The notes under the pieces were generated by a model, which was not told the DNA's origin, did no database searches, and worked only from the letters and a program-made list of their open reading frames with translations. DNA of 55,676 nucleotides from Sideroxydans sp. Lineage in GTDB: Bacteria; Pseudomonadota; Gammaproteobacteria; Burkholderiales; Gallionellaceae. The translations under genes were made by a program, and so were the position numbers. The stretch lies in NCBI GenBank assembly GCA_028710605.1, contig JAQTTU010000016.1:1-55676 (forward strand), written 5' to 3'. Each line of letters starts with the position of its first letter. The first letter of the stretch is position 1. Below are positions 2,327 to 55,541 of this stretch, piece by piece.

Positions 2327-2565
2327 GTAGGTTGGGTTAGCGGTTTCACCGCGTAACCCAACATGGGAAAAATAATTTGCTACAGAGGACACAGAAAACA
2401 CAGAGCATTCGTTGCTACTTCGCCAGAGATGCTCTTTTTTTGGGAAGACGGCGAATTGAGAAACATTCAAGTCTCTCTCTGTGTACTCTGTGATCTCTGT
2501 GGCTAATTTGGTTTTTAGATTTTTAAATTGTTGGGTTACGCGATAAAACCGCTAACCCAACCTAC
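2327..2565. repeat. Nested palindromic repeats between rnm and yciO
   Basis: The outer element is two inverted arms, GTAGGTTGGGTTAGCGG... at 2327-2362 and the complementary ...CCGCTAACCCAACCTAC at 2530-2565; the left arm is also a hairpin by itself. Inside sits a CACAGAG-family inverted repeat, with left arm about 2375-2405 (ACAGAGGACACAG) and right arm about 2473-2512 (CTCTGTGATCTCTGTGGC). The layout is as expected if one repeat inserted into another. No gene is seen here. Confidence 0.85.
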
Positions 2566-7436: not shown

Positions 7437-7450
7437 TGAATCCGGTTTGT

Positions 7451-7507
7451 GTAGGTGCGAATTCATTCGCACGATGTTCGGTCATGTGCGAATGAATTCG
7501 CACCTAC
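7451..7507. repeat. GTAGGTGCGAATTCATTCGCAC-family palindrome
   Basis: The two complementary arms start GTAGGTGCGAATTCATTCGC (7451) and end at 7507 with CGAATTCGCACCTAC, around a short spacer. The transcript would form a long stable hairpin just after scpB. Other copies are at 22102-22127, inside 24119-24370 (split) and at 55484-55541. Confidence 0.88.
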
Positions 7508-9350: not shown

Positions 9351-9379
9351 TTGACCGGACAACGCTGTTCGCGCAGAAT
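9351..9379 (+). promoter_or_regulatory. Candidate sigma70 promoter of the hydrogenase operon
   Basis: TTGACC (9351-9356), 17 bases, then CAGAAT (9374-9379), which differ from consensus by one and two bases. It lies 40 bases upstream of the hynS ATG and downstream of a hairpin. No experimental support can be seen in the sequence. Confidence 0.45.
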
Positions 9380-9419
9380 GAACCCGCATTCCATGGTTCA
9401 CCGGACACAGGGAGTCAAA

Positions 9420-10535
9420 ATGAAAAAAACGCAAAAAGCGGAGGTTATACCCGGTTCAGTGGGTGAAGGTCTGGCGCAGCGCGGGGTCACCCGCCGCGAG
9501 TTTCTCAAATACTGTTCTTCGCTGGCGGCGCTGTTGGCGCTGCCGCCTTCGATGGCCAGCGCGATGGCGGAAGCCATCAGCAAGGCGCGACGGCAATCGG
9601 TGATCTGGCTGTCGTTTCAGGAATGCACCGGCTGCACCGAATCCATCACGCGTTCGCATTCGCCGACGCTGGAAAATCTGATCTTCGATTTAATCTCACT
9701 CGACTACCACCACACGCTGCAAGCCGCTTCGGGCGAGGCTGCCGAGCAGGCGCGCATGCAGGCGATGAAGGACAACGACGGCAAATATCTGGTGATCGTG
9801 GACGGCTCGATCCCTTTGGGCAATCCCGGTTATTCCTGCATCGCGGGCATCAGCAATCACGACATGCTGGTGGAAACCGCGAAGGGCGCGGCGGCGATTG
9901 TGGCGGTGGGAACATGCGCGGCTTTCGGCGGTTTGCCGATGGCCGATCCGAACCCGACCGGCGCGGTTTCTGTCGGCGACATCATCAAGGACAAACCCAT
10001 CATCAACGTGCCCGGATGCCCGCCGATTCCGGTGGTGATGACTGGCGTGCTGGCGCATTTCCTCACCTTTGGCGGTCTTCCCGAAATGGATGCGCTGGGT
10101 CGCCCGAAATCATTTTACGGCGACACCATTCACGACCGCTGCTACCGCCGTCCGTTCTACGATCAGGGCAAATTTGCGCAGAGTTTCGATGACGAAGCGG
10201 CGCGCAATGGCTGGTGTTTGTTCAAACTCGGCTGCAAAGGCCCGGTGACCTACAACGCCTGCGCCACCACTAAGTGGAATGATGGAACAAGTTTTCCCAT
10301 CCAGTCCGGCCACGGTTGCATCGGCTGTTCCGAACCTGATTTCTGGGACGCGGGATCGTTCTACAAAGCGCTGTCGATGCCGGTGTCGGCTACTTCTTCC
10401 ATGTTGGCTGGGGCGGCGGCAGTCGGCGCGGCGGCGGGCGTGGCGATCACCTGGCATAACCGTTCGACCAAGGCGGCGGCGAAAGCGGCGCATGAAAAAG
10501 TGACGGTGCAGGATTTGACGCGGGAGGTGAAATGA
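9420..10535 (+). CDS. hynS: [NiFe]-hydrogenase small subunit (group 1e-like)
   Basis: The 371-residue electron-transfer subunit has three iron-sulfur clusters. A twin-arginine signal, TRREFLK, is at residues 24-30, so the folded heterodimer should be exported by Tat. Proximal-cluster cysteines are in ECTGCTES (Cys69, Cys72). Later ligands are in GTCAAFGG, NVPGCPP, DRCYRRP, KLGCKGPVTYNAC and GHGCIGCSEP. The extra cysteines of oxygen-tolerant enzymes (CTCCSE) are absent. A hydrophobic C-terminal segment (MLAGAAAVGAAAGVAITW) anchors it. ATG 9420 has a GGGAG ribosome site; an in-frame upstream start at 9351 would overlap the promoter candidate. The order S-isp1-isp2-L matches Thiocapsa-type HynSL. 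Confidence 0.96.
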   Translation: MKKTQKAEVIPGSVGEGLAQRGVTRREFLKYCSSLAALLALPPSMASAMAEAISKARRQSVIWLSFQECTGCTESITRSHSPTLENLIFDLISLDYHHTLQAASGEAAEQARMQAMKDNDGKYLVIVDGSIPLGNPGYSCIAGISNHDMLVETAKGAAAIVAVGTCAAFGGLPMADPNPTGAVSVGDIIKDKPIINVPGCPPIPVVMTGVLAHFLTFGGLPEMDALGRPKSFYGDTIHDRCYRRPFYDQGKFAQSFDDEAARNGWCLFKLGCKGPVTYNACATTKWNDGTSFPIQSGHGCIGCSEPDFWDAGSFYKALSMPVSATSSMLAGAAAVGAAAGVAITWHNRSTKAAAKAAHEKVTVQDLTREVK

Positions 10536-10648
10536 AGATTTCTAAAAACAAATCTCACCACAGAGGCACAGAGATACAGAGAAAGACAAAACCATTCTCC
10601 GTTTTTCCTCTGTGCCTCTGTGTCTCTGTGGTGGAGGTTTTCAAATGA
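10532..10648 (+). CDS. 38-codon coupled reading frame through the repeat between hynS and isp1
   Basis: The frame begins at an ATG overlapping the hynS stop (ATGA at 10532) with a strong GGGAGG upstream, and ends in a TGA overlapping the isp1 start (ATGA at 10645). It runs without a stop through the whole CACAGAG hairpin. The encoded peptide (for example HHRGTEIQRKTK and LCLCVSVVEV) looks like translated repeat DNA, not a selected protein. Its likely meaning is that ribosomes can still pass from hynS to isp1. Treat it as a coupling frame; a stable product is doubtful. Confidence 0.3.
   Translation: MKISKNKSHHRGTEIQRKTKPFSVFPLCLCVSVVEVFK
10556..10633. repeat. CACAGAG-family inverted repeat between hynS and isp1
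   Basis: The arms are CACCACAGAGGCACAGAG (left) and CTCTGTGTCTCTGTGGTG (right). The right arm ends directly at GGAGG (10633-10637), the ribosome site of isp1, so folding could mask it. Related copies are at 2375-2512, 11325-11450 and 48715-48826. Confidence 0.88.
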
Positions 10649-11304
10649 ACCATCTCGATCTTTTAACTTTTGCGCGCGGCAGCGCACTCAACTGGGCGCT
10701 GATGATATTTGCCGCCGGTGTTGTGTTGCGCCTGTTTGAAATCTTCGGTCTCAGCCGCAAGCCGGATCTGGCAAGGCCGCGCAGCGATTCGCCGGGAAGC
10801 GGCTGGCGCACGATGTTGTCGCGCTCCATCCCGCCGCAAGGCATGCTGAAACGCGATCCGGTGACGTATATCGGCGGTTACGTGTTCCACCTCGGACTGC
10901 TCCTCGCCATCTTCTTTTTTGCGCCGCACATCGAGTTCTTCCGCAGCATGACCGGCCTGCACTGGCCGAATTTGCCGACAGCGCTGGTGGATGCTTCTGT
11001 GGTGGCGGCGATTGCCGCGCTGGGCGTGCTGCTGGCGCACCGGCTCAACAACAAGGTGAAGCGCATGCTGTCCGGCTCAGGCGATTATCTGGCGTGGGCG
11101 GTGACGCTGCTGCCTTTGCTCACCGGCTACATGGCTTATCACCACCTGCTGTTTGAATATGCGCTGATGCTCTCGCTGCATATTTTCTCGGTCGAACTGC
11201 TGCTGGTTCTGCTGCCGTTCACCAAACTGTTTCACACCTTCTCTGTGTTCGTGTCGCGTTGGTACAACGGCGACTTTTTTGGGCGGAAGGGAGTGGCATC
11301 ATGA
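10645..11304 (+). CDS. isp1: Hydrogenase-associated cytochrome b-like membrane protein Isp1
   Basis: The 219-residue membrane protein resembles the NarI/DsrM heme-b family. It has five hydrophobic helices (about residues 11-30, 75-95, 110-130, 148-170 and 173-195). Histidines in VFHLGLLLAIFF, YHHLLFEYALML and SLHIFS are likely heme ligands. In group 1e hydrogenases Isp1 takes electrons from HynSL and passes them to quinone or to Isp2. The ATG at 10645 follows GGAGG with seven bases of spacing. Its stop forms ATGA with the start of the next coupled frame. Confidence 0.88.
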   Translation: MNHLDLLTFARGSALNWALMIFAAGVVLRLFEIFGLSRKPDLARPRSDSPGSGWRTMLSRSIPPQGMLKRDPVTYIGGYVFHLGLLLAIFFFAPHIEFFRSMTGLHWPNLPTALVDASVVAAIAALGVLLAHRLNNKVKRMLSGSGDYLAWAVTLLPLLTGYMAYHHLLFEYALMLSLHIFSVELLLVLLPFTKLFHTFSVFVSRWYNGDFFGRKGVAS

Positions 11305-11516
11305 GTGAAAGCAAAAAAAATAAATTTAGCCACAGAGAACACAGAGATCACCGAGAAATACCAAATGCAAAGTGGCTTGTATTGGATGATTCCGCTATAG
11401 ATGGACAAGGCTCGTCTTTCTCTGTGTCCTCTGTGTTCTCTGTGGCTAAAGGTTTTTTTCAAGAAACAGTTGGAAGCCGATACCTGAATTTTCGGAGTAT
11501 GGAGGCCACGTCATGA
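11301..11516 (+). CDS. 71-codon coupled reading frame through the repeat between isp1 and isp2
   Basis: The ATG at 11301 overlaps the isp1 stop (ATGA) and has GGGAG upstream. The frame stays open across the CACAGAG repeat and ends at 11516, overlapping the isp2 start at 11513 (ATGA). The peptide contains repeat-derived HREHRDHRE and SVSSVFSVAK runs. As at the hynS-isp1 junction, the insertion has kept continuous translation from gene to gene. It is probably not a functional protein. Confidence 0.3.
   Translation: MSESKKNKFSHREHRDHREIPNAKWLVLDDSAIDGQGSSFSVSSVFSVAKGFFQETVGSRYLNFRSMEATS
11325..11450. repeat. CACAGAG-family inverted repeat between isp1 and isp2
   Basis: The left arm is TTTAGCCACAGAGAACACAG (from 11325), and the right arm ends at 11450 with GTGTTCTCTGTGGCTAAA. 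A 60-70 base spacer lies between. About 60 further bases of unassigned sequence precede isp2, ending in its GGAGG ribosome site. Confidence 0.88.
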
Positions 11517-12775
11517 GCGCGACTCTCGCCAAAGGCATCAACTCTTTCAAGGAAGTGATCGACACGCCCATCGCCAGCTACTTCTCCAGTTGCGTGCATT
11601 GCGGACTGTGCGCGGAAGCGTGCCTGTTCTACAACGAAACCGGCGATGCAAAATATACGCCCATCCACAAGCTGGAACCGTTGCGCCGCGTGTGGAAGCA
11701 GGAGTACACGCTGCTCGGCAAGCTGGGCAAGATGCTCGGTCTGTCCGATCCGGTGACGGATGCGGAACTGACGGAGTGGGAACCGCTGGTGTATGACAGT
11801 TGCACCATGTGCGGCCGCTGTTCCATGGTGTGCCCGGTGGGCAACGACATCACTTACATGATCCGCAAGATGCGCGAGGGCATGTCCGCTTCCGGCCATG
11901 CGCCTGAGGACATGATCGGCGCGACGGCGCGCGCGGTGAACATCGGTAGCCCGATGGGCATCAAGTGGCCTGCGGTGCAGGCGCAGATCAAACACGTGCA
12001 GGCGGAGACCGGTATCGAAGTGCCGGTCGATAAGCAAGGTGCGGACTACCTGGTGTTGATGTCGTCGATGGAAATCATCAATTTCCCGGAATACCTGTCC
12101 GCGCTCAGCCGCATTTTCAAACAGGCCGGCGTGAGCTGGACGCTGGCTGCCGATGCGTTCGAGGCGACCAACAGCGGCATCCAGATCGGCGCTTCCGATC
12201 TGGCGCGCGAGATCGTCAGCCGCATCGTGGTGGCCGCCGAGCGATTGAAAGTGAAATGCGTCATCAGCCCGGAATGCGGCCATGCCTTCACCGCGATCCG
12301 CTGGGAAGGCCCCAACCTGATGGGCAGGCCGTTCGGCTTCGAGGTGAAGCACATCCTCGAAGTGCTGGACGGGTTGCACGCGGCGGGCAAACTCAAAACC
12401 AGGGGCAAGGACAAACGCCCGCTGACCTATCACGATCCCTGCCAGATCGCGCGGCGCGGCGGGGTGGTGGCGCAACCGCGCCGCTTGCTGAACGAGGTGG
12501 CGGAGGACTTCCGCGAGATGCCGGATGCGGGCGTGATGAACTGGTGTTGCGGCGGAGGCGGCGGCGTATCGGCCAACTCGCGCGCCGAGCCGCTGCGTCT
12601 GGAAGTGTTCAAGACCAAGAAGCGGCAGATCGAAGCCACCGGCGTTCACACGTTAATCACCGCCTGCGCCAATTGCCGCATCGTGATGGAAGAAGGTTTG
12701 GAACATTACCAGATGAAGGTCGAAGTGCTCGGCCTGACCGAGCTGCTCGCCGAATATCTGGTAGAAGGGGAATGA
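11513..12775 (+). CDS. isp2: Hydrogenase-associated HdrD-like iron-sulfur protein Isp2
   Basis: The 420-residue cytosolic protein resembles HdrD/DsrK. There are two [4Fe-4S] motifs: CVHCGLCAEAC at Cys27-Cys37 and CTMCGRCSMVC at Cys97-Cys107. Two CCG-type segments follow; ligands are visible in VISPECGHAF, YHDPCQIARRGG, MNWCCGGGGG and ITACANC. In HynS-Isp1-Isp2-HynL systems it is thought to work with Isp1 in electron exchange with a cytosolic partner. The heterodisulfide-reductase kinship is notable given the Hdr genes at 43.6-45.1 kb, but any direct link is inference. Confidence 0.9.
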   Translation: MSATLAKGINSFKEVIDTPIASYFSSCVHCGLCAEACLFYNETGDAKYTPIHKLEPLRRVWKQEYTLLGKLGKMLGLSDPVTDAELTEWEPLVYDSCTMCGRCSMVCPVGNDITYMIRKMREGMSASGHAPEDMIGATARAVNIGSPMGIKWPAVQAQIKHVQAETGIEVPVDKQGADYLVLMSSMEIINFPEYLSALSRIFKQAGVSWTLAADAFEATNSGIQIGASDLAREIVSRIVVAAERLKVKCVISPECGHAFTAIRWEGPNLMGRPFGFEVKHILEVLDGLHAAGKLKTRGKDKRPLTYHDPCQIARRGGVVAQPRRLLNEVAEDFREMPDAGVMNWCCGGGGGVSANSRAEPLRLEVFKTKKRQIEATGVHTLITACANCRIVMEEGLEHYQMKVEVLGLTELLAEYLVEGE

Positions 12776-13435: not shown

Positions 13436-15217
13436 ATGAATTCACCAACCACCAACCGCGTTATCGTTGACCCCGTCACCCGCATCGAAGGCCATTTGCG
13501 CATCGAAGCCGAAACCGATAACACAGGTCGCATCACCCGCGCTTCGTCCGCAGGAACCATGGTGCGCGGCATCGAGCTTATTCTCAAGGGACGCGACCCG
13601 CGCGATGCGTGGGCGCTGGCGCAACGCATTTGCGGCGTGTGTACGCTGGTGCACGGCATCGCCTCGGTGCGCTCGGTGGAGAACGCGCTGAAGATCGAAG
13701 TGCCGCACAACGCGGAGCTGATCCGCAACCTGATGATAGGCGCGCAATACATCCACGATCACGTGATGCACTTTTATCATCTGCATGCGCTGGACTGGGT
13801 GGATGTGGTGTCGGCGCTGAAAGCCGATCCCAAAGCGACTTCAGCCTTGGCGCAAAGCATTTCCGGTTACGCCAAATCGTCGCCCGGTTATTTCAGCGAC
13901 GTGCAGAAAAAACTCAAAGGCTTTGTAGAAGCAGGCCAATTGGGCATCTTCGCTAACGGCTATTGGGGACACCCGGCGTACAAGTTGCCGCCGGAAGCCA
14001 ACCTGATGGCGGTGGCGCATTATCTGGACGCGTTGGCGTGGCAGCGCGATGTGGTGAAACTGCATGCCGTGTTCGGCGGCAAAAATCCGCACCCGATGTT
14101 TTTGGTGGGCGGCGTGCCGTGCGCGATCAGCATTGATCCGAATCATCAAGGGCAGGGCAACGGCGCGCATTTTCGCGGCGGCAATTCCGGCACGGCGCTG
14201 AATGTGGTCGGGCTGCAAACCGTGCAGAACGCCATCAACCAGATGCGCGAATTCGTCGATCAGGTGTATGTGCCGGACACGCTGGCGATTGCCGGTTTTT
14301 ACAAGGACTGGTTCAAGCAGGGCGAAGGCGTGGGCAACTTCCTCACCTTCGGTGAGTTCCCGGCCAAGGGCATGAGCGATCCGTCTTCCTACATGATTCC
14401 TTCCGGCGTGATTCTGGATAGAGACTTGAGCAAAATCCACCCCATCGACCTCAACGCGGAAAGCGAGATTCAGGAATTCGTGAGCCATGCGTGGTACGAC
14501 TATTCCGTGGGCAAAACTCAGGGACTGCACCCGTACAAAGGCGAAACCAAACTCGACTACACCGGGCCGAAGCCGCCCTACGACCATCTGGATGTGGAGA
14601 AGGATTATTCGTGGATGAAGTCGCCGCGCTGGCAAGGCAAAGCGGTTGAAGTCGGCCCTTTGGCGCGCGTGCTGATGCTGTATGCCAGCGGACACGAGCA
14701 GACCAAAGAACTGGTCGGCATGACGCTGAAAAAACTCGACCTGCCGGTGCAGGCGCTGTATTCCACCATGGGACGCACCGCCGCGCGCACGCTGGAAACC
14801 AAGCTCGTGGCCGACGCGATGCAAGGCTGGTACGACCAACTGGTGGCCAACATCAAAGCGGGTGATGTGAAGACGTTCAATGACACGAAATGGGAACCTT
14901 CGACGTGGCCTGCTCATGCGCAAGGCGTGGGCGTGATGGAAGCGCCGCGCGGCGGGCTGTCGCACTGGATCGTCATCGACGAACAGAAAATTTCCAACTA
15001 TCAGGCCATCGTACCCAGCACCTGGAACGCGGGGCCGCGCGATGCGGCGGGCAATCAGGGCGCTTACGAAGCCGCGCTGCAAGGTCACCAGTTGCACGAC
15101 GTGAAGCAACCTATCGAAATTCTGCGCACCATCCACAGCTTCGACCCGTGCATCGCCTGCGCCGTGCATTTGACCGACCCGGACGGCAAGGAACTGGTGC
15201 AGGTGAAGGTGGTTTGA
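13436..15217 (+). CDS. hynL: [NiFe]-hydrogenase large subunit (group 1e-like)
   Basis: The 593-residue catalytic subunit carries the Ni-Fe(CN)2CO site and interconverts H2 with protons and electrons. Nickel ligands are in RICGVCTLVH (Cys66, Cys69) and DPCIACAVH (Cys572, Cys575). A 15-residue tail after His578 is the expected maturation-protease product. It has no signal peptide of its own and would be exported with HynS. It is separated from the rest of the operon by a 218-base repeat-bearing gap, so it may need read-through or its own weak promoter. Confidence 0.97.
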   Translation: MNSPTTNRVIVDPVTRIEGHLRIEAETDNTGRITRASSAGTMVRGIELILKGRDPRDAWALAQRICGVCTLVHGIASVRSVENALKIEVPHNAELIRNLMIGAQYIHDHVMHFYHLHALDWVDVVSALKADPKATSALAQSISGYAKSSPGYFSDVQKKLKGFVEAGQLGIFANGYWGHPAYKLPPEANLMAVAHYLDALAWQRDVVKLHAVFGGKNPHPMFLVGGVPCAISIDPNHQGQGNGAHFRGGNSGTALNVVGLQTVQNAINQMREFVDQVYVPDTLAIAGFYKDWFKQGEGVGNFLTFGEFPAKGMSDPSSYMIPSGVILDRDLSKIHPIDLNAESEIQEFVSHAWYDYSVGKTQGLHPYKGETKLDYTGPKPPYDHLDVEKDYSWMKSPRWQGKAVEVGPLARVLMLYASGHEQTKELVGMTLKKLDLPVQALYSTMGRTAARTLETKLVADAMQGWYDQLVANIKAGDVKTFNDTKWEPSTWPAHAQGVGVMEAPRGGLSHWIVIDEQKISNYQAIVPSTWNAGPRDAAGNQGAYEAALQGHQLHDVKQPIEILRTIHSFDPCIACAVHLTDPDGKELVQVKVV

Positions 15218-15228
15218 GCAAATAATCT

Positions 15229-48714: not shown

Positions 48715-48826
48715 CACCACAGAGACACAGAGAACACCGGGCAAACCAAGCAACGACATATTTTTGTGGCAACGAAATAGGAGCGGCAAATTTTGGCGTT
48801 TTGTTTTTCTCTGTGTCTCTGTGGTG
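48715..48826. repeat. CACAGAG-family inverted repeat between umuD and umuC
   Basis: The arms are CACCACAGAGACACAGAG (48715) and CTCTGTGTCTCTGTGGTG (ending 48826). On the minus strand an ATG overlaps the umuD stop (ATGA at 48842) and opens a 42-codon frame across the repeat that stops at 48714, about 30 bases before umuC. The 5' coupling matches the hydrogenase insertions, but the 3' overlap is lost. Confidence 0.87.
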
Positions 48827-48838
48827 AAAGTTTTTGAT

Positions 48839-49318
48839 TCATACCTTATGCACATTCCACTGCACCACGCCCCAGATGGAAAAATCCTGTTCCGGTTTGA
48901 TGGTCACTTCCGGGTAATCGGGATGGGCTGCGCGCAGCACTTTGCCGCGCGGGGTGTAGAGCAACTGCTTCACCGTGAACTCGCCATCCACCACCGCCAC
49001 CACCACGCAGCCGTGCGAGGCGGGAACTGAACGATCCACCACCAGCAGGTCGCCGTCAAAAATGCCCAGCTCGCGCATCGAATGTCCCGCCACGCGCATG
49101 AAGAAGGTCGATTCCTTGTGCTGGATCAGATGCTCGTCCAGGCTCAGTCGGCGTTCGACATAGTCGTCGGCAGGCGAGGGGAAGCCCGCAGGCACGGCCT
49201 TGTGCAACAACGCGCGTTGCCTCTCGAACATGGATTTATTGGGGTGCGTCAGCGACAGCAGGGCGGGGTGTGCGGCGTGGCGCGCGGGGCTGGCAAAATG
49301 GTGATTAAGGCTGGTCAC
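48839..49318 (-). CDS. umuD: UmuD-like autoproteolytic subunit of polymerase V
   Basis: The 159-residue LexA-type S24 peptidase without a DNA-binding domain should self-cleave on RecA filaments to activate UmuC. The catalytic Ser80 is in AGHSMREL and Lys117 in VDGEFTVKQL. The cleavage site is Ala44-Gly45 in VPAGFPSPADDYVE. All three are offset by exactly 20 from E. coli UmuD (24, 60, 97), so only the N-terminal arm is longer. GTG 49318 follows TAGGAGATTGTC, a good ribosome site. Its promoter has two copies of a palindromic operator. Confidence 0.94.
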   Translation of the reverse strand: MTSLNHHFASPARHAAHPALLSLTHPNKSMFERQRALLHKAVPAGFPSPADDYVERRLSLDEHLIQHKESTFFMRVAGHSMRELGIFDGDLLVVDRSVPASHGCVVVAVVDGEFTVKQLLYTPRGKVLRAAHPDYPEVTIKPEQDFSIWGVVQWNVHKV

Positions 49319-49961: not shown

Positions 49962-51098
49962 ATGTCAGAGGTGAAGCAGGTTAAATTGACACCCAACGAG
50001 ATTCGCACCGCCAAGAACGCGGCGGCAGCTGAAAAAACGCTAGCCCTCGCCAATAAATTGATGCTTGCCGCCAATCAGGCAGCGGCAGAAGCCAAGCAGA
50101 TACTGGAAGCGAAACAACTCATCGCCGCTCAAAAAGAGGATGCGGCAACCAAGGCACAAGTTGCTTATGCGACGGCAGTCGAAAAGAAAGCGCGGGCAGA
50201 ACAGGAAATGAGCGCCGCAACGGCAGCAGGTGAACAGGCGCGCGCGGATGCCGAGGCGGCCAGAGTCGCCAAACTCCTCGCCGCACAACAAGCTGCGGCG
50301 GCCAAGCAATTGGCAATGGAACAAGCAAAACAACGCGCACAGGAAGCCGCCGCAGCCAAATTGGCCCAGGCAGAAGCCAAAAAACAAGCGGCGGAAGAAG
50401 CGGCTGCCTTGAAAAAAGCGGAAGCTGAAGCAAAAAAGAAAGCCGCCGAAGAAGCCGCAGCCCTGAAGAAAGCCGAGGCGGAGGCCAGAAAGCTTGCCGC
50501 ACAACAAGCGGCAGCAGAAGCCGCAGCGTTGAAATTGGCCGAAGCCGAAGCACGCAAGCTGGCGGCGCAACAAGCAGCGGCAGCGAAACAAGCTGAGGCC
50601 GAGGCCAGGAAGAAAGCGGCGGAAGAAGCGGCTGCCCTGAAGAAATCCGAGGCAGAAGCCAGAGCCAGAGCCGCAGCAGAAGCTGCTGCCTTGAAAAAAG
50701 CCGAAGCTGAAGCACGCAGGCTGGCGGCACAGCAAGCCGCCGCCGAAAAGAAGGCCGAAGCCGAGGCCAGAAAACAAGCAGCGCTGGAAGTTGCCGCCAT
50801 CAAGAAAGCGGAAGCCGAAGTAAAAAAGATCGCCGTACAGGAAGCCGCAGCGGCAAGAAAGCTGGCCGCTGAACAAACCAAGTTGGCCGCACAAGAACTG
50901 GCCGCCGCCAAGAAAGCGGAAGCCGATGCACGCAAGGCCGCAGCCGCTCAAGCGAAACAAATTGCACAGGAAGCAGCGGCTGCACGCAAAGCAGCCGCCG
51001 CACTGAAAAAAGCCGAAGCCGCCGCCAGAAAAGCCGCCTTGGTTCCACCCGAACCTGTCTGGCCCTTCCCGGACGAGGAAAGCAAAGAGGCGGTTTGA
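49962..51098 (+). CDS. Alanine/lysine/glutamate repeat coiled-coil protein
   Basis: The 378-residue protein is mostly Ala, Lys, Glu and Gln, with heptad-like repeats such as KKAEAEARKLAAQQAA and AAEEAAALKKAEAEA from about residue 100 to 350. A single long helix or coiled coil is expected. It has no signal peptide or membrane segment, so it differs from TolA. The first 60 residues are less repetitive (VKLTPNEIRTAKNAA), and the acidic C-terminus ends PPEPVWPFPDEESKEAV. Histone H1-like, KfrA-like or PhaF-like DNA-binding or scaffold roles are possible. The operator shared with umuD suggests induction by DNA damage. Confidence 0.85.
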   Translation: MSEVKQVKLTPNEIRTAKNAAAAEKTLALANKLMLAANQAAAEAKQILEAKQLIAAQKEDAATKAQVAYATAVEKKARAEQEMSAATAAGEQARADAEAARVAKLLAAQQAAAAKQLAMEQAKQRAQEAAAAKLAQAEAKKQAAEEAAALKKAEAEAKKKAAEEAAALKKAEAEARKLAAQQAAAEAAALKLAEAEARKLAAQQAAAAKQAEAEARKKAAEEAAALKKSEAEARARAAAEAAALKKAEAEARRLAAQQAAAEKKAEAEARKQAALEVAAIKKAEAEVKKIAVQEAAAARKLAAEQTKLAAQELAAAKKAEADARKAAAAQAKQIAQEAAAARKAAAALKKAEAAARKAALVPPEPVWPFPDEESKEAV

Positions 51099-55444: not shown

Positions 55445-55483
55445 TTTTTGTAAACCAAAACCGATGTGCCCAGTTGAGGGTTT

Positions 55484-55541
55484 GTAGGTGCGAATTCATT
55501 CGCACAAGCATCGCGTTTTGTGCGAATGAATTCGCACCTAC
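55484..55541. repeat. GTAGGTGCGAATTCATTCGCAC-family palindrome beside the IS30 remnant
   Basis: Arms GTAGGTGCGAATTCATTCGC and GCGAATGAATTCGCACCTAC surround a short spacer, as at 7451-7507. It lies 15 bases from the end of the transposase fragment and 39 bases after the YheT gene. Confidence 0.88.

Follow-up and report, generated by a model that had tools for sequence, protein, structure and literature searches.

Two junctions in a hydrogenase operon of the iron-oxidiser-like bacterium Sideroxydans sp. are occupied by short inverted repeats built of CACAGAG units, and each insert is traversed by an open reading frame (ORF) that connects the flanking genes through stop/start overlaps of the sequence ATGA. 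The operon is located in a window of 55,676 nucleotides (JAQTTU010000016.1, assembly GCA_028710605.1), contig 2 among the 35 that make up a genome of 3.36 Mb, labelled G000 here. The inserts are likely to be dispersed, probably non-autonomous hairpin repeats situated in tight junctions between co-directional genes, where selection for translational coupling favours those copies that are in phase and open. The retention of frame looks selected, and the repeat occupies tight junctions in excess.

The first insert separates the gene of a hynS-like [NiFe] hydrogenase small subunit (9351..10535, forward strand, as are all features of this operon) from that of an isp1-like membrane anchor (10645..11304). 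The TGA stop codon of hynS is part of an ATGA (10532-10535), whose ATG opens linker ORF 1 (10532..10648), and after 38 codons this linker ends in a TGA overlapping the isp1 start (ATGA at 10645). In between lies a CACAGAG hairpin element with an 8-nt period (10550..10640), which carries a Shine-Dalgarno-like GGAGG for isp1 in its 3' strand. The same arrangement is found between isp1, stopping within the ATGA at 11301-11304, and the gene of an isp2-like Fe-S/CCG-domain protein (11513..12775). Here linker ORF 2 (11301..11516, 71 codons) overlaps both the isp1 stop and the isp2 start (ATGA at 11513) and reads through an element with a 9-nt period (approximately 11325..11456). Direct reading and recomputation confirmed the initial annotation of this DNA as far as the flanking ATGA motifs and the length of the open frames are concerned. 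Its description of the inserts as CACAGAG repeats holds for both elements, but not for the 3' part of insert 2 (about 11472-11512), which resembles the end of an element found at isp1/isp2 in relatives. This part (11472..11512, forward strand), which holds a GGAGG in front of isp2, is probably the remnant of a second mini-ORF element, beginning ATGAGCAG. In local alignments with loci L013, L011, L009 and L015, only 0, 4, 6 and 9 of 500 shuffles, respectively, were as good; the alignments with L006 (65/500) and L008 (125/500) were not significant.

A third insert, between umuD and umuC, comprises a CACAGAG element and a linker frame on the reverse strand (48716..48842). As annotated initially, the frame starts at an ATGA (48842) and has lost its 3' overlap: after 42 codons, its stop ends 28 nt before the umuC start. 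A fourth element (approximately 2387..2505, forward strand), which had been missed, follows a TAA stop codon and is not frame-coupled. Altogether, CACAGAG occurs 20 times in the window compared with 4.7 times in shuffles, and none of 100 shuffles reached 20. The window contains no Rfam match at gathering score, and insert 1 has no match in the plasmid collection PLSDB.

Elements of the CACAGAG family have an 8- or 9-nt period and, by inspection, ends of the type AAAACC...GGTTTT, and they fold into hairpins. G000 contains 106 pattern matches at the 8-nt period (31 with a reversed control pattern) and 297 at the 9-nt period (none with the control). Genomes of the genus contain between 0 and 403 pattern matches; the repeat is present in 32 of 34, and the two devoid of it are 94 and 99% complete. 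Placement and reading frame were analysed in stretches from G000 (58), G011 (44) and G017 (36) plus the window, so that the main statistics rest on three related genomes, with genes called by a home-made caller. An element was defined by at least three CACAGAG units, leaving out those with fewer. As elements were sampled from the matches listed (100 of 106, 100 of 297, 100 of 132 and 100 of 135 places), the resulting counts of at least 90, 58 and 40 elements in G000, G011 and G017, at least 188 in all, are lower bounds. Five of the 90 G000 elements possess units of one arm only. Between co-directional (tandem) genes lie 167 of the 188 elements (80, 55 and 32 in the three genomes), the 80 G000 rows representing 79 distinct junctions.

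A junction was regarded as eligible for coupling if the upstream stop is part of (A/G/T)TGA and the downstream gene starts with ATGA; a linker with a 4-bp overlap on either side requires an ATG-to-ATG distance of 2 modulo 3. For the 37 inserts at eligible junctions, the distances modulo 3 (0/1/2) are distributed 2/9/26, with 12.3 expected in phase 2 (binomial p = 4.8e-6 against one third). The other 130 tandem elements display no bias (39/45/46). The coupling phase is found in 15/21 eligible inserts of G000, 8/12 of G011 (p = 0.019) and 3/4 of G017; omission of the window elements leaves 24/35, and counting in addition only one insert per orthologous junction 20/30 (p = 2e-4). An exact double overlap with open frame, by 1 or 4 bp, is observed in 18 of the 167 tandem elements (12/80, 4/55 and 2/32 in G000, G011 and G017), compared with 7.3 expected over three phases under a null in which every insert is additionally read after lengthening by one or two bases. 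Similarly, the linker stop falls between 3 nt before and 8 nt after the downstream start in 22 of 37 cases (9.3 expected). The comparison of double overlaps with composition and random phase, proposed initially as a refuting test, thus did not refute the retention of frame. As a repeat-free control, 109 tandem pairs of G000 with a distance of 20 nt or more were used; the 19 with eligible codons, a small sample, have phases 8/3/8. At least one of these controls, L110, holds (near 1137) a copy similar to a dispersed palindrome, GTGCGAATTCATTCGCAC, between genes with a double ATGA overlap; in the window this palindrome is found at 7450-7503, 22101, 24343 and 55483-55537.

The location of the elements is biased as well. 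Among junctions of 60 bp or more that served as controls in these stretches, tandem ones make up 89/128, 37/54 and 29/42 cases (G000, G011 and G017), so that the tandem excess of the elements is significant in G000 (Fisher p = 7e-5) and G011 (p = 4e-4), not in G017 (p = 0.12). Three, zero and two elements, respectively, are situated at the edge of a stretch, and none of the 188 lies wholly inside a called gene. The first unit follows the stop of the upstream gene at a median distance of 18-20 nt, and the last unit precedes the start of the downstream gene by a median of 25-31 nt, conserved A/T-rich ends included. The residual spacer, calculated by subtracting an assumed 24 nt of element ends, is 30 nt or less for 46 of the 80 G000 tandem elements, and tandem spacers of that size account for 482 of 23,138 bp of the control intergenic DNA, control spacers above 600 bp being left out. 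Random insertion followed by purifying selection would not by itself be expected to give such an excess in tight junctions, since copies should also be tolerated in long and convergent spacers; insertion may therefore be targeted, or copies at these places may be beneficial. Of the two explanations offered initially, selection is thus supported by the phase statistics, and targeting only as an over-representation of tight junctions, which benefit could also produce. At filled sites, ATGA or a few more bases are present on both sides compared with one copy in empty sites, and TAA-type sites show no such duplication clearly. Some elements of 9-nt period provide the stop codon of the upstream gene themselves (TTAG at the element end; L081:3873, L069:1869 and L081:14247), and at the first two of these the overlap of the orthologs in the repeat-poor relative G049 seems longer by more bases. 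At the end of G000 contig 17 (L103:6391-6577), one element arm has grown into a head-to-tail CACAGAGNN array of 21 units, and an array of more than 10 such units is located at livG/livF of G041 (L238); long CACAGAGNN arrays may break assemblies.

Comparison with related loci gives an indication of the state before insertion. Relatives of isp1 were found at 44 related loci, the close ones belonging to assemblies of Sideroxydans, Gallionella, other Gallionellaceae or Nitrosomonadales. Leaving out L035-L044, 26 of the 34 tabulated rows have a 4-bp ATGA overlap of hynS and isp1; the row of L013 (gap 395) is a miscall, as the DNA contains the ATGA overlap. Two of the 26 reach the overlap through another repeat. 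In L002 and L012, a ATTCCGGCCTGCGCCGGAATGACG repeat is located at the 3' end of hynS, and the frame through it still overlaps isp1 by ATGA (gap -4). The hynS/isp1 insert itself is probably shared with L017, and the ATG-to-ATG distances of 113 nt in the window and 137 nt in L017 are both in phase. At isp1/isp2 of L023, a Thiohalomonas assembly, a different repeat, GCAGAGACGC, forms a doubly overlapping frame of 63 codons.

The most uniform picture is obtained for ftsW/murG, for which 27 loci contain both genes. The 16 unfilled junctions all have the ATGA overlap (14 recorded as gap -4, L215 and L217 as -1 since the match begins one codon late), and the 11 filled junctions all retain an unbroken ATGA chain, two of them via two linkers in series. 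These inserts belong to at least four repeat families: CACAGAG in G000, G011 and G020, a CATCCGTG repeat in G017 and mutually similar AAGCCCCAACGGGGC repeats in seven genomes; in G044 the AAGCCCCAACGGGGC repeat is followed by a TTTCGTG repeat as second linker. At murG/murC, 8 of 28 loci are filled and seven of the eight show a chain; in the remaining one (L215) the frame stops 2 nt short of the start. The chain of L222 runs via three very short ORFs and may be due to chance, and one insert is common to L195 and L196, another to L214 and L218; such shared ancestry among filled junctions lowers their independence. Both murG and murC are essential in other bacteria. Domain models back MurG, MurC, BioD, HolC and the hydrogenase large subunit of L074, and ftsW, bioC, macA, liv and pepA were named by eye. 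The MurG of G000 (L069:4554-5783) contains an in-frame insert of about 40 residues (150-189), which the matches in G017 and G049 span and at which the other matches listed break; by eye, its DNA resembles another repeat family of the window, GCCCGTCAATAGGCGATC (15291, 24401 and 53579).

In sixty stretches of G049, orthologous junctions were recovered for 26 G000 rows, and in 17 of these the genes overlap or are at most 30 nt apart. Among the 34 rows compared, two junctions carry an element in G049, one copy is degenerate, one junction appears twice and the orthology of a few is doubtful. Eight junctions have a visible empty ATGA overlap in G049. Three of these are exactly coupled in G000 (ftsW/murG, a bioD junction and a MacB-like ABC junction), and at two others (L099 and L113) the G000 linker stops within 8 nt of the start.

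The ATGAGCAG family behaves in a comparable manner. It is present in 1-3 tandem copies per junction (L255-L272, and L004-L017 after isp1), and a pattern derived from isp1/isp2 of relatives, ATGAGCAGNGANCAGG, has 18 matches in 11 of the 34 genus genomes and none in G000. Sixteen of the 18 ORFs end in the ATGA start of a downstream frame of 200-468 codons, 12 start in an ATGA at the end of a frame of 180 codons or more, and 10 overlap on both sides; of the six with a different start, four are later tandem copies and two (L261 and L271) have only six open codons upstream. Besides isp1/isp2 and murG/murC, the sites comprise three further types of junction, which by eye are RnfC-, PrpB- and MetW-like. 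As the peptide frame varies among copies that are alike in DNA, it seems to be DNA rather than peptide that is kept in this family. The peptides of linker ORFs 1 and 2 have no Pfam match either, and linker peptides as conserved proteins were accordingly dismissed.

Both hydrogenase inserts are predicted to form stable RNA hairpins, with folding energies of -55.4 kcal/mol (z = -9.8) for insert 1 (10529-10650) and -81.2 kcal/mol (z = -6.8) for insert 2 (11298-11518). In the fold of insert 1, the GGAGG preceding isp1 is buried in the hairpin stem. In G000, pairing of the start-proximal region is stronger for 15 chain elements (0.30 unpaired) than for 73 control junctions (0.45 unpaired; p = 0.013). 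A likely course of events would begin with a copy entering a 4-bp ATGA overlap, presumably by transposition, so that the overlap can then stand on both sides. Selection for coupling would favour inserts with an open frame and an ATG-to-ATG distance of 2 modulo 3, thereby giving rise to a linker ORF. A ribosome terminating on the upstream gene would restart at the left ATGA and read the linker; its passage could open the hairpin and free the Shine-Dalgarno motif in the 3' strand, before termination within the right ATGA and a new start at the downstream gene. Judging from the frames, ribosomes probably still pass from gene to gene through the linkers. Coupling at ATGA overlaps by termination-reinitiation is documented by Huber et al. 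(2019, PMC6728339), and models of coupling by unfolding and by reinitiation are outlined in parts of Brown and Wade (2025, PMC12548453). As a more far-reaching and tentative proposal, which may well not hold in full, stop/start overlaps could be a common landing site for several unrelated repeat families of the genus. Each insert would survive as a ribosome relay whose hairpin hides the downstream start until a ribosome delivered from upstream reads the linker, and operons would gain and swap translated spacers, even in series, without loss of coupling.

Several results weigh against selection for coupling as the explanation of the open inserts. Repeat-free controls show some excess as well, with 5 of 19 exact double overlaps (2.0 expected), and because of these the direct contrasts are weak: the coupling phase is found in 26/37 inserts versus 8/19 controls (p = 0.05; for G000 alone 15/21 versus 8/19, p = 0.11), and the exact double overlap in 18/37 versus 5/19 (p = 0.15). 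Coupling is not a general requirement, because 149 of the 167 tandem elements are not exactly doubly overlapping. Among G000 elements, the association between ATGA upstream and ATGA downstream is not significant (odds 2.8, p = 0.076). The ancestral overlap is also less uniform elsewhere than at ftsW/murG. At isp1/isp2, 8 of 13 unfilled rows have the -4 overlap and the rest a TAA or TAG 9-14 nt before isp2. At murG/murC only 4 of 20 unfilled loci have it, most having a TAG or TAA a few bases before murC. The ancestral state is therefore mixed at both junctions. In the close relative L001, isp1/isp2 is broken by another repeat after a TAG stop and no chain exists, and three of the eight junctions with an empty overlap in G049 are uncoupled in G000 (L062, L085 and L089). 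One ftsW/murG family may represent a single old insertion, so that the 11 filled cases correspond to fewer events. Pairing of the start region does not differ significantly between the 15 chain elements and the 65 other elements of G000 (p = 0.18), and masking of the start was accordingly rejected as a difference between coupled and uncoupled elements. Finally, target duplication beyond ATGA is blurred by the A/T-rich element ends, which hide the limits of the elements, and a search for a mobilising enzyme, confined to one family (Y1 transposase, PF01797), revealed none. Mobilisation by a RAYT was discarded, since none of 10 PF01797 matches in G000 has a CACAGAG at a distance of up to about 1.5 kb.

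Three other explanations have to be considered. If the repeats or their transposase recognised stop/start overlaps and copied ATGA as a target duplication, the frame could be a by-product of site choice alone. Such recognition agrees with the excess of tight tandem junctions, with the filling of the same junction by different families, with ATGA flanking both sides at many sites and with 15 junctions that are filled in both G000 and G011 (about 3 expected if 1500 junctions are shared, an assumed number). However, ATG-to-ATG distances vary widely and are near uniform modulo 3 outside NTGA/ATGA junctions, so that a site rule alone does not give the phase. Since in addition many G000 tandem elements follow TAA or TAG (36 and 6 of 80), we consider site choice on its own unlikely. 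Alternatively, the hairpin might be under positive selection at operon junctions as an attenuator or as an element affecting the processing or stability of RNA, a role that has been proposed for bacterial repeats elsewhere, and the open frames would merely let ribosomes through. The hairpins are indeed strong and often followed by T runs, and few elements lie between divergent or convergent genes (7/90, 3/58 and 6/40 in G000, G011 and G017, not significant in the last). Nevertheless, the wide range of copy number within one genus and the functionally unrelated genes at the junctions speak against such a role, and an essential function does not apply because two near-complete genomes of the genus have no copy at all. 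This possibility appears somewhat improbable.

The remaining explanation attributes the open ATGA-to-ATGA frames to composition, as the repeats rarely hold stops. CACAGAG arms do contain few stop codons in most frames, and repeat-free junctions likewise display exact double overlaps. Yet the null of one- or two-base shifts, which preserves composition, predicts fewer than half of the double overlaps observed and does not favour chance, and the phase test argues against it as well, leaving very little probability for this account. Selection for coupling among inserts in tight junctions accordingly remains the reading that we prefer.

No report of a CACAGAG repeat at bacterial gene junctions was seen among the open-licence papers listed in the searches, one of which, on Bacteroides, contains one of six 15- to 16-mers. 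The behaviour of the elements resembles that described for MIRUs (mycobacterial interspersed repetitive units), with hairpin structure, convergence of unrelated families and length-variable interiors as the new features. MIRUs are direct repeats that form tandem copies at a junction, and their target is said, from the work of Supply et al. in 1997, to be DTGA, which equals the (A/G/T)TGA class used here. In contrast, CACAGAG elements are inverted, forming hairpins, and occur in another clade; tandem copies, likewise one to three, are restricted to the ATGAGCAG family. Several unrelated families converge here on one junction, and the frame is often kept although the interiors vary in length. 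The comparison is one of descriptions. Brown and Wade (2025, PMC12548453) portray MIRUs as mobile repeats inserted at start codons, with an internal ORF coupled at a spacing of -4 nt; the elements described here are similarly short, mobile-looking repeats at start codons with, in part of the copies, an internal ORF coupled to its neighbour at -4 nt, and they are dispersed predominantly between co-directional genes. Double overlap is found in more than half of the ATGAGCAG ORFs, but in only 18 of the 167 CACAGAG elements even when 1-bp overlaps are counted with those of 4 bp.

With ERIC/RU-1, NEMIS, RPE and other MITE-like repeats, as presented in parts of PMC2759123 and PMC2229807, the elements share a size of about 100-200 bp, hairpin-forming transcripts and, in some cases, open frames; the terminal inverted repeats of CACAGAG elements add to the likeness with ERIC. 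The ORFs described in those parts are fused in frame to genes, whereas the CACAGAG frame is a separate linker between two genes. REP/REPIN sequences with RAYT (PMC3116915, PMC2817692) are palindromic, intergenic and of high copy number as well, but differ in unit structure and in the proximity to Y1 transposases that is lacking here. Relative to the termination-reinitiation treated by Huber et al. (2019, PMC6728339), the same mode of coupling is assumed for each ATGA, which there connects two genes and here a gene, one or more linkers and a gene.

The genes next to the inserts were assigned by domain models. HynS matches TIGR00391 with 432 bits (cut-off 179.5) as well as PF14720 and PF01058, and isp2 matches PF02754 and PF13183. 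Below cut-off only, isp1 resembles the NCBIfam models of TmcC/HmcE relatives and isp2 those of DsrK/HmcF. The gene of the hydrogenase large subunit follows at 13436..15217 (forward strand; PF00374, 786 bits), and umuC and umuD are above the cut-off of NF002955 and NF007621, respectively. Elsewhere in the window, a 49-nt repeat (GTAGGTCGGG...CCCGACCTAC) has three copies at 15226, 16224 and 52442, and imperfect 54-nt repeats at 50283-51037 form part of an ORF, perhaps as a coiled-coil or TolA-like stretch.

Linkers of the kind described here may escape gene finders or be misannotated by them. For many genes, the cell-wall genes murG and murC among them, coupled and uncoupled inserts at orthologous junctions constitute a natural, replicated experiment on translational coupling, and the selective value of an ATGA overlap can therefore be read from the retention of frame. 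The MIRU-like behaviour of these repeats suggests that coupled insertion is a general way for repeats to live in operons and not a mycobacterial oddity.

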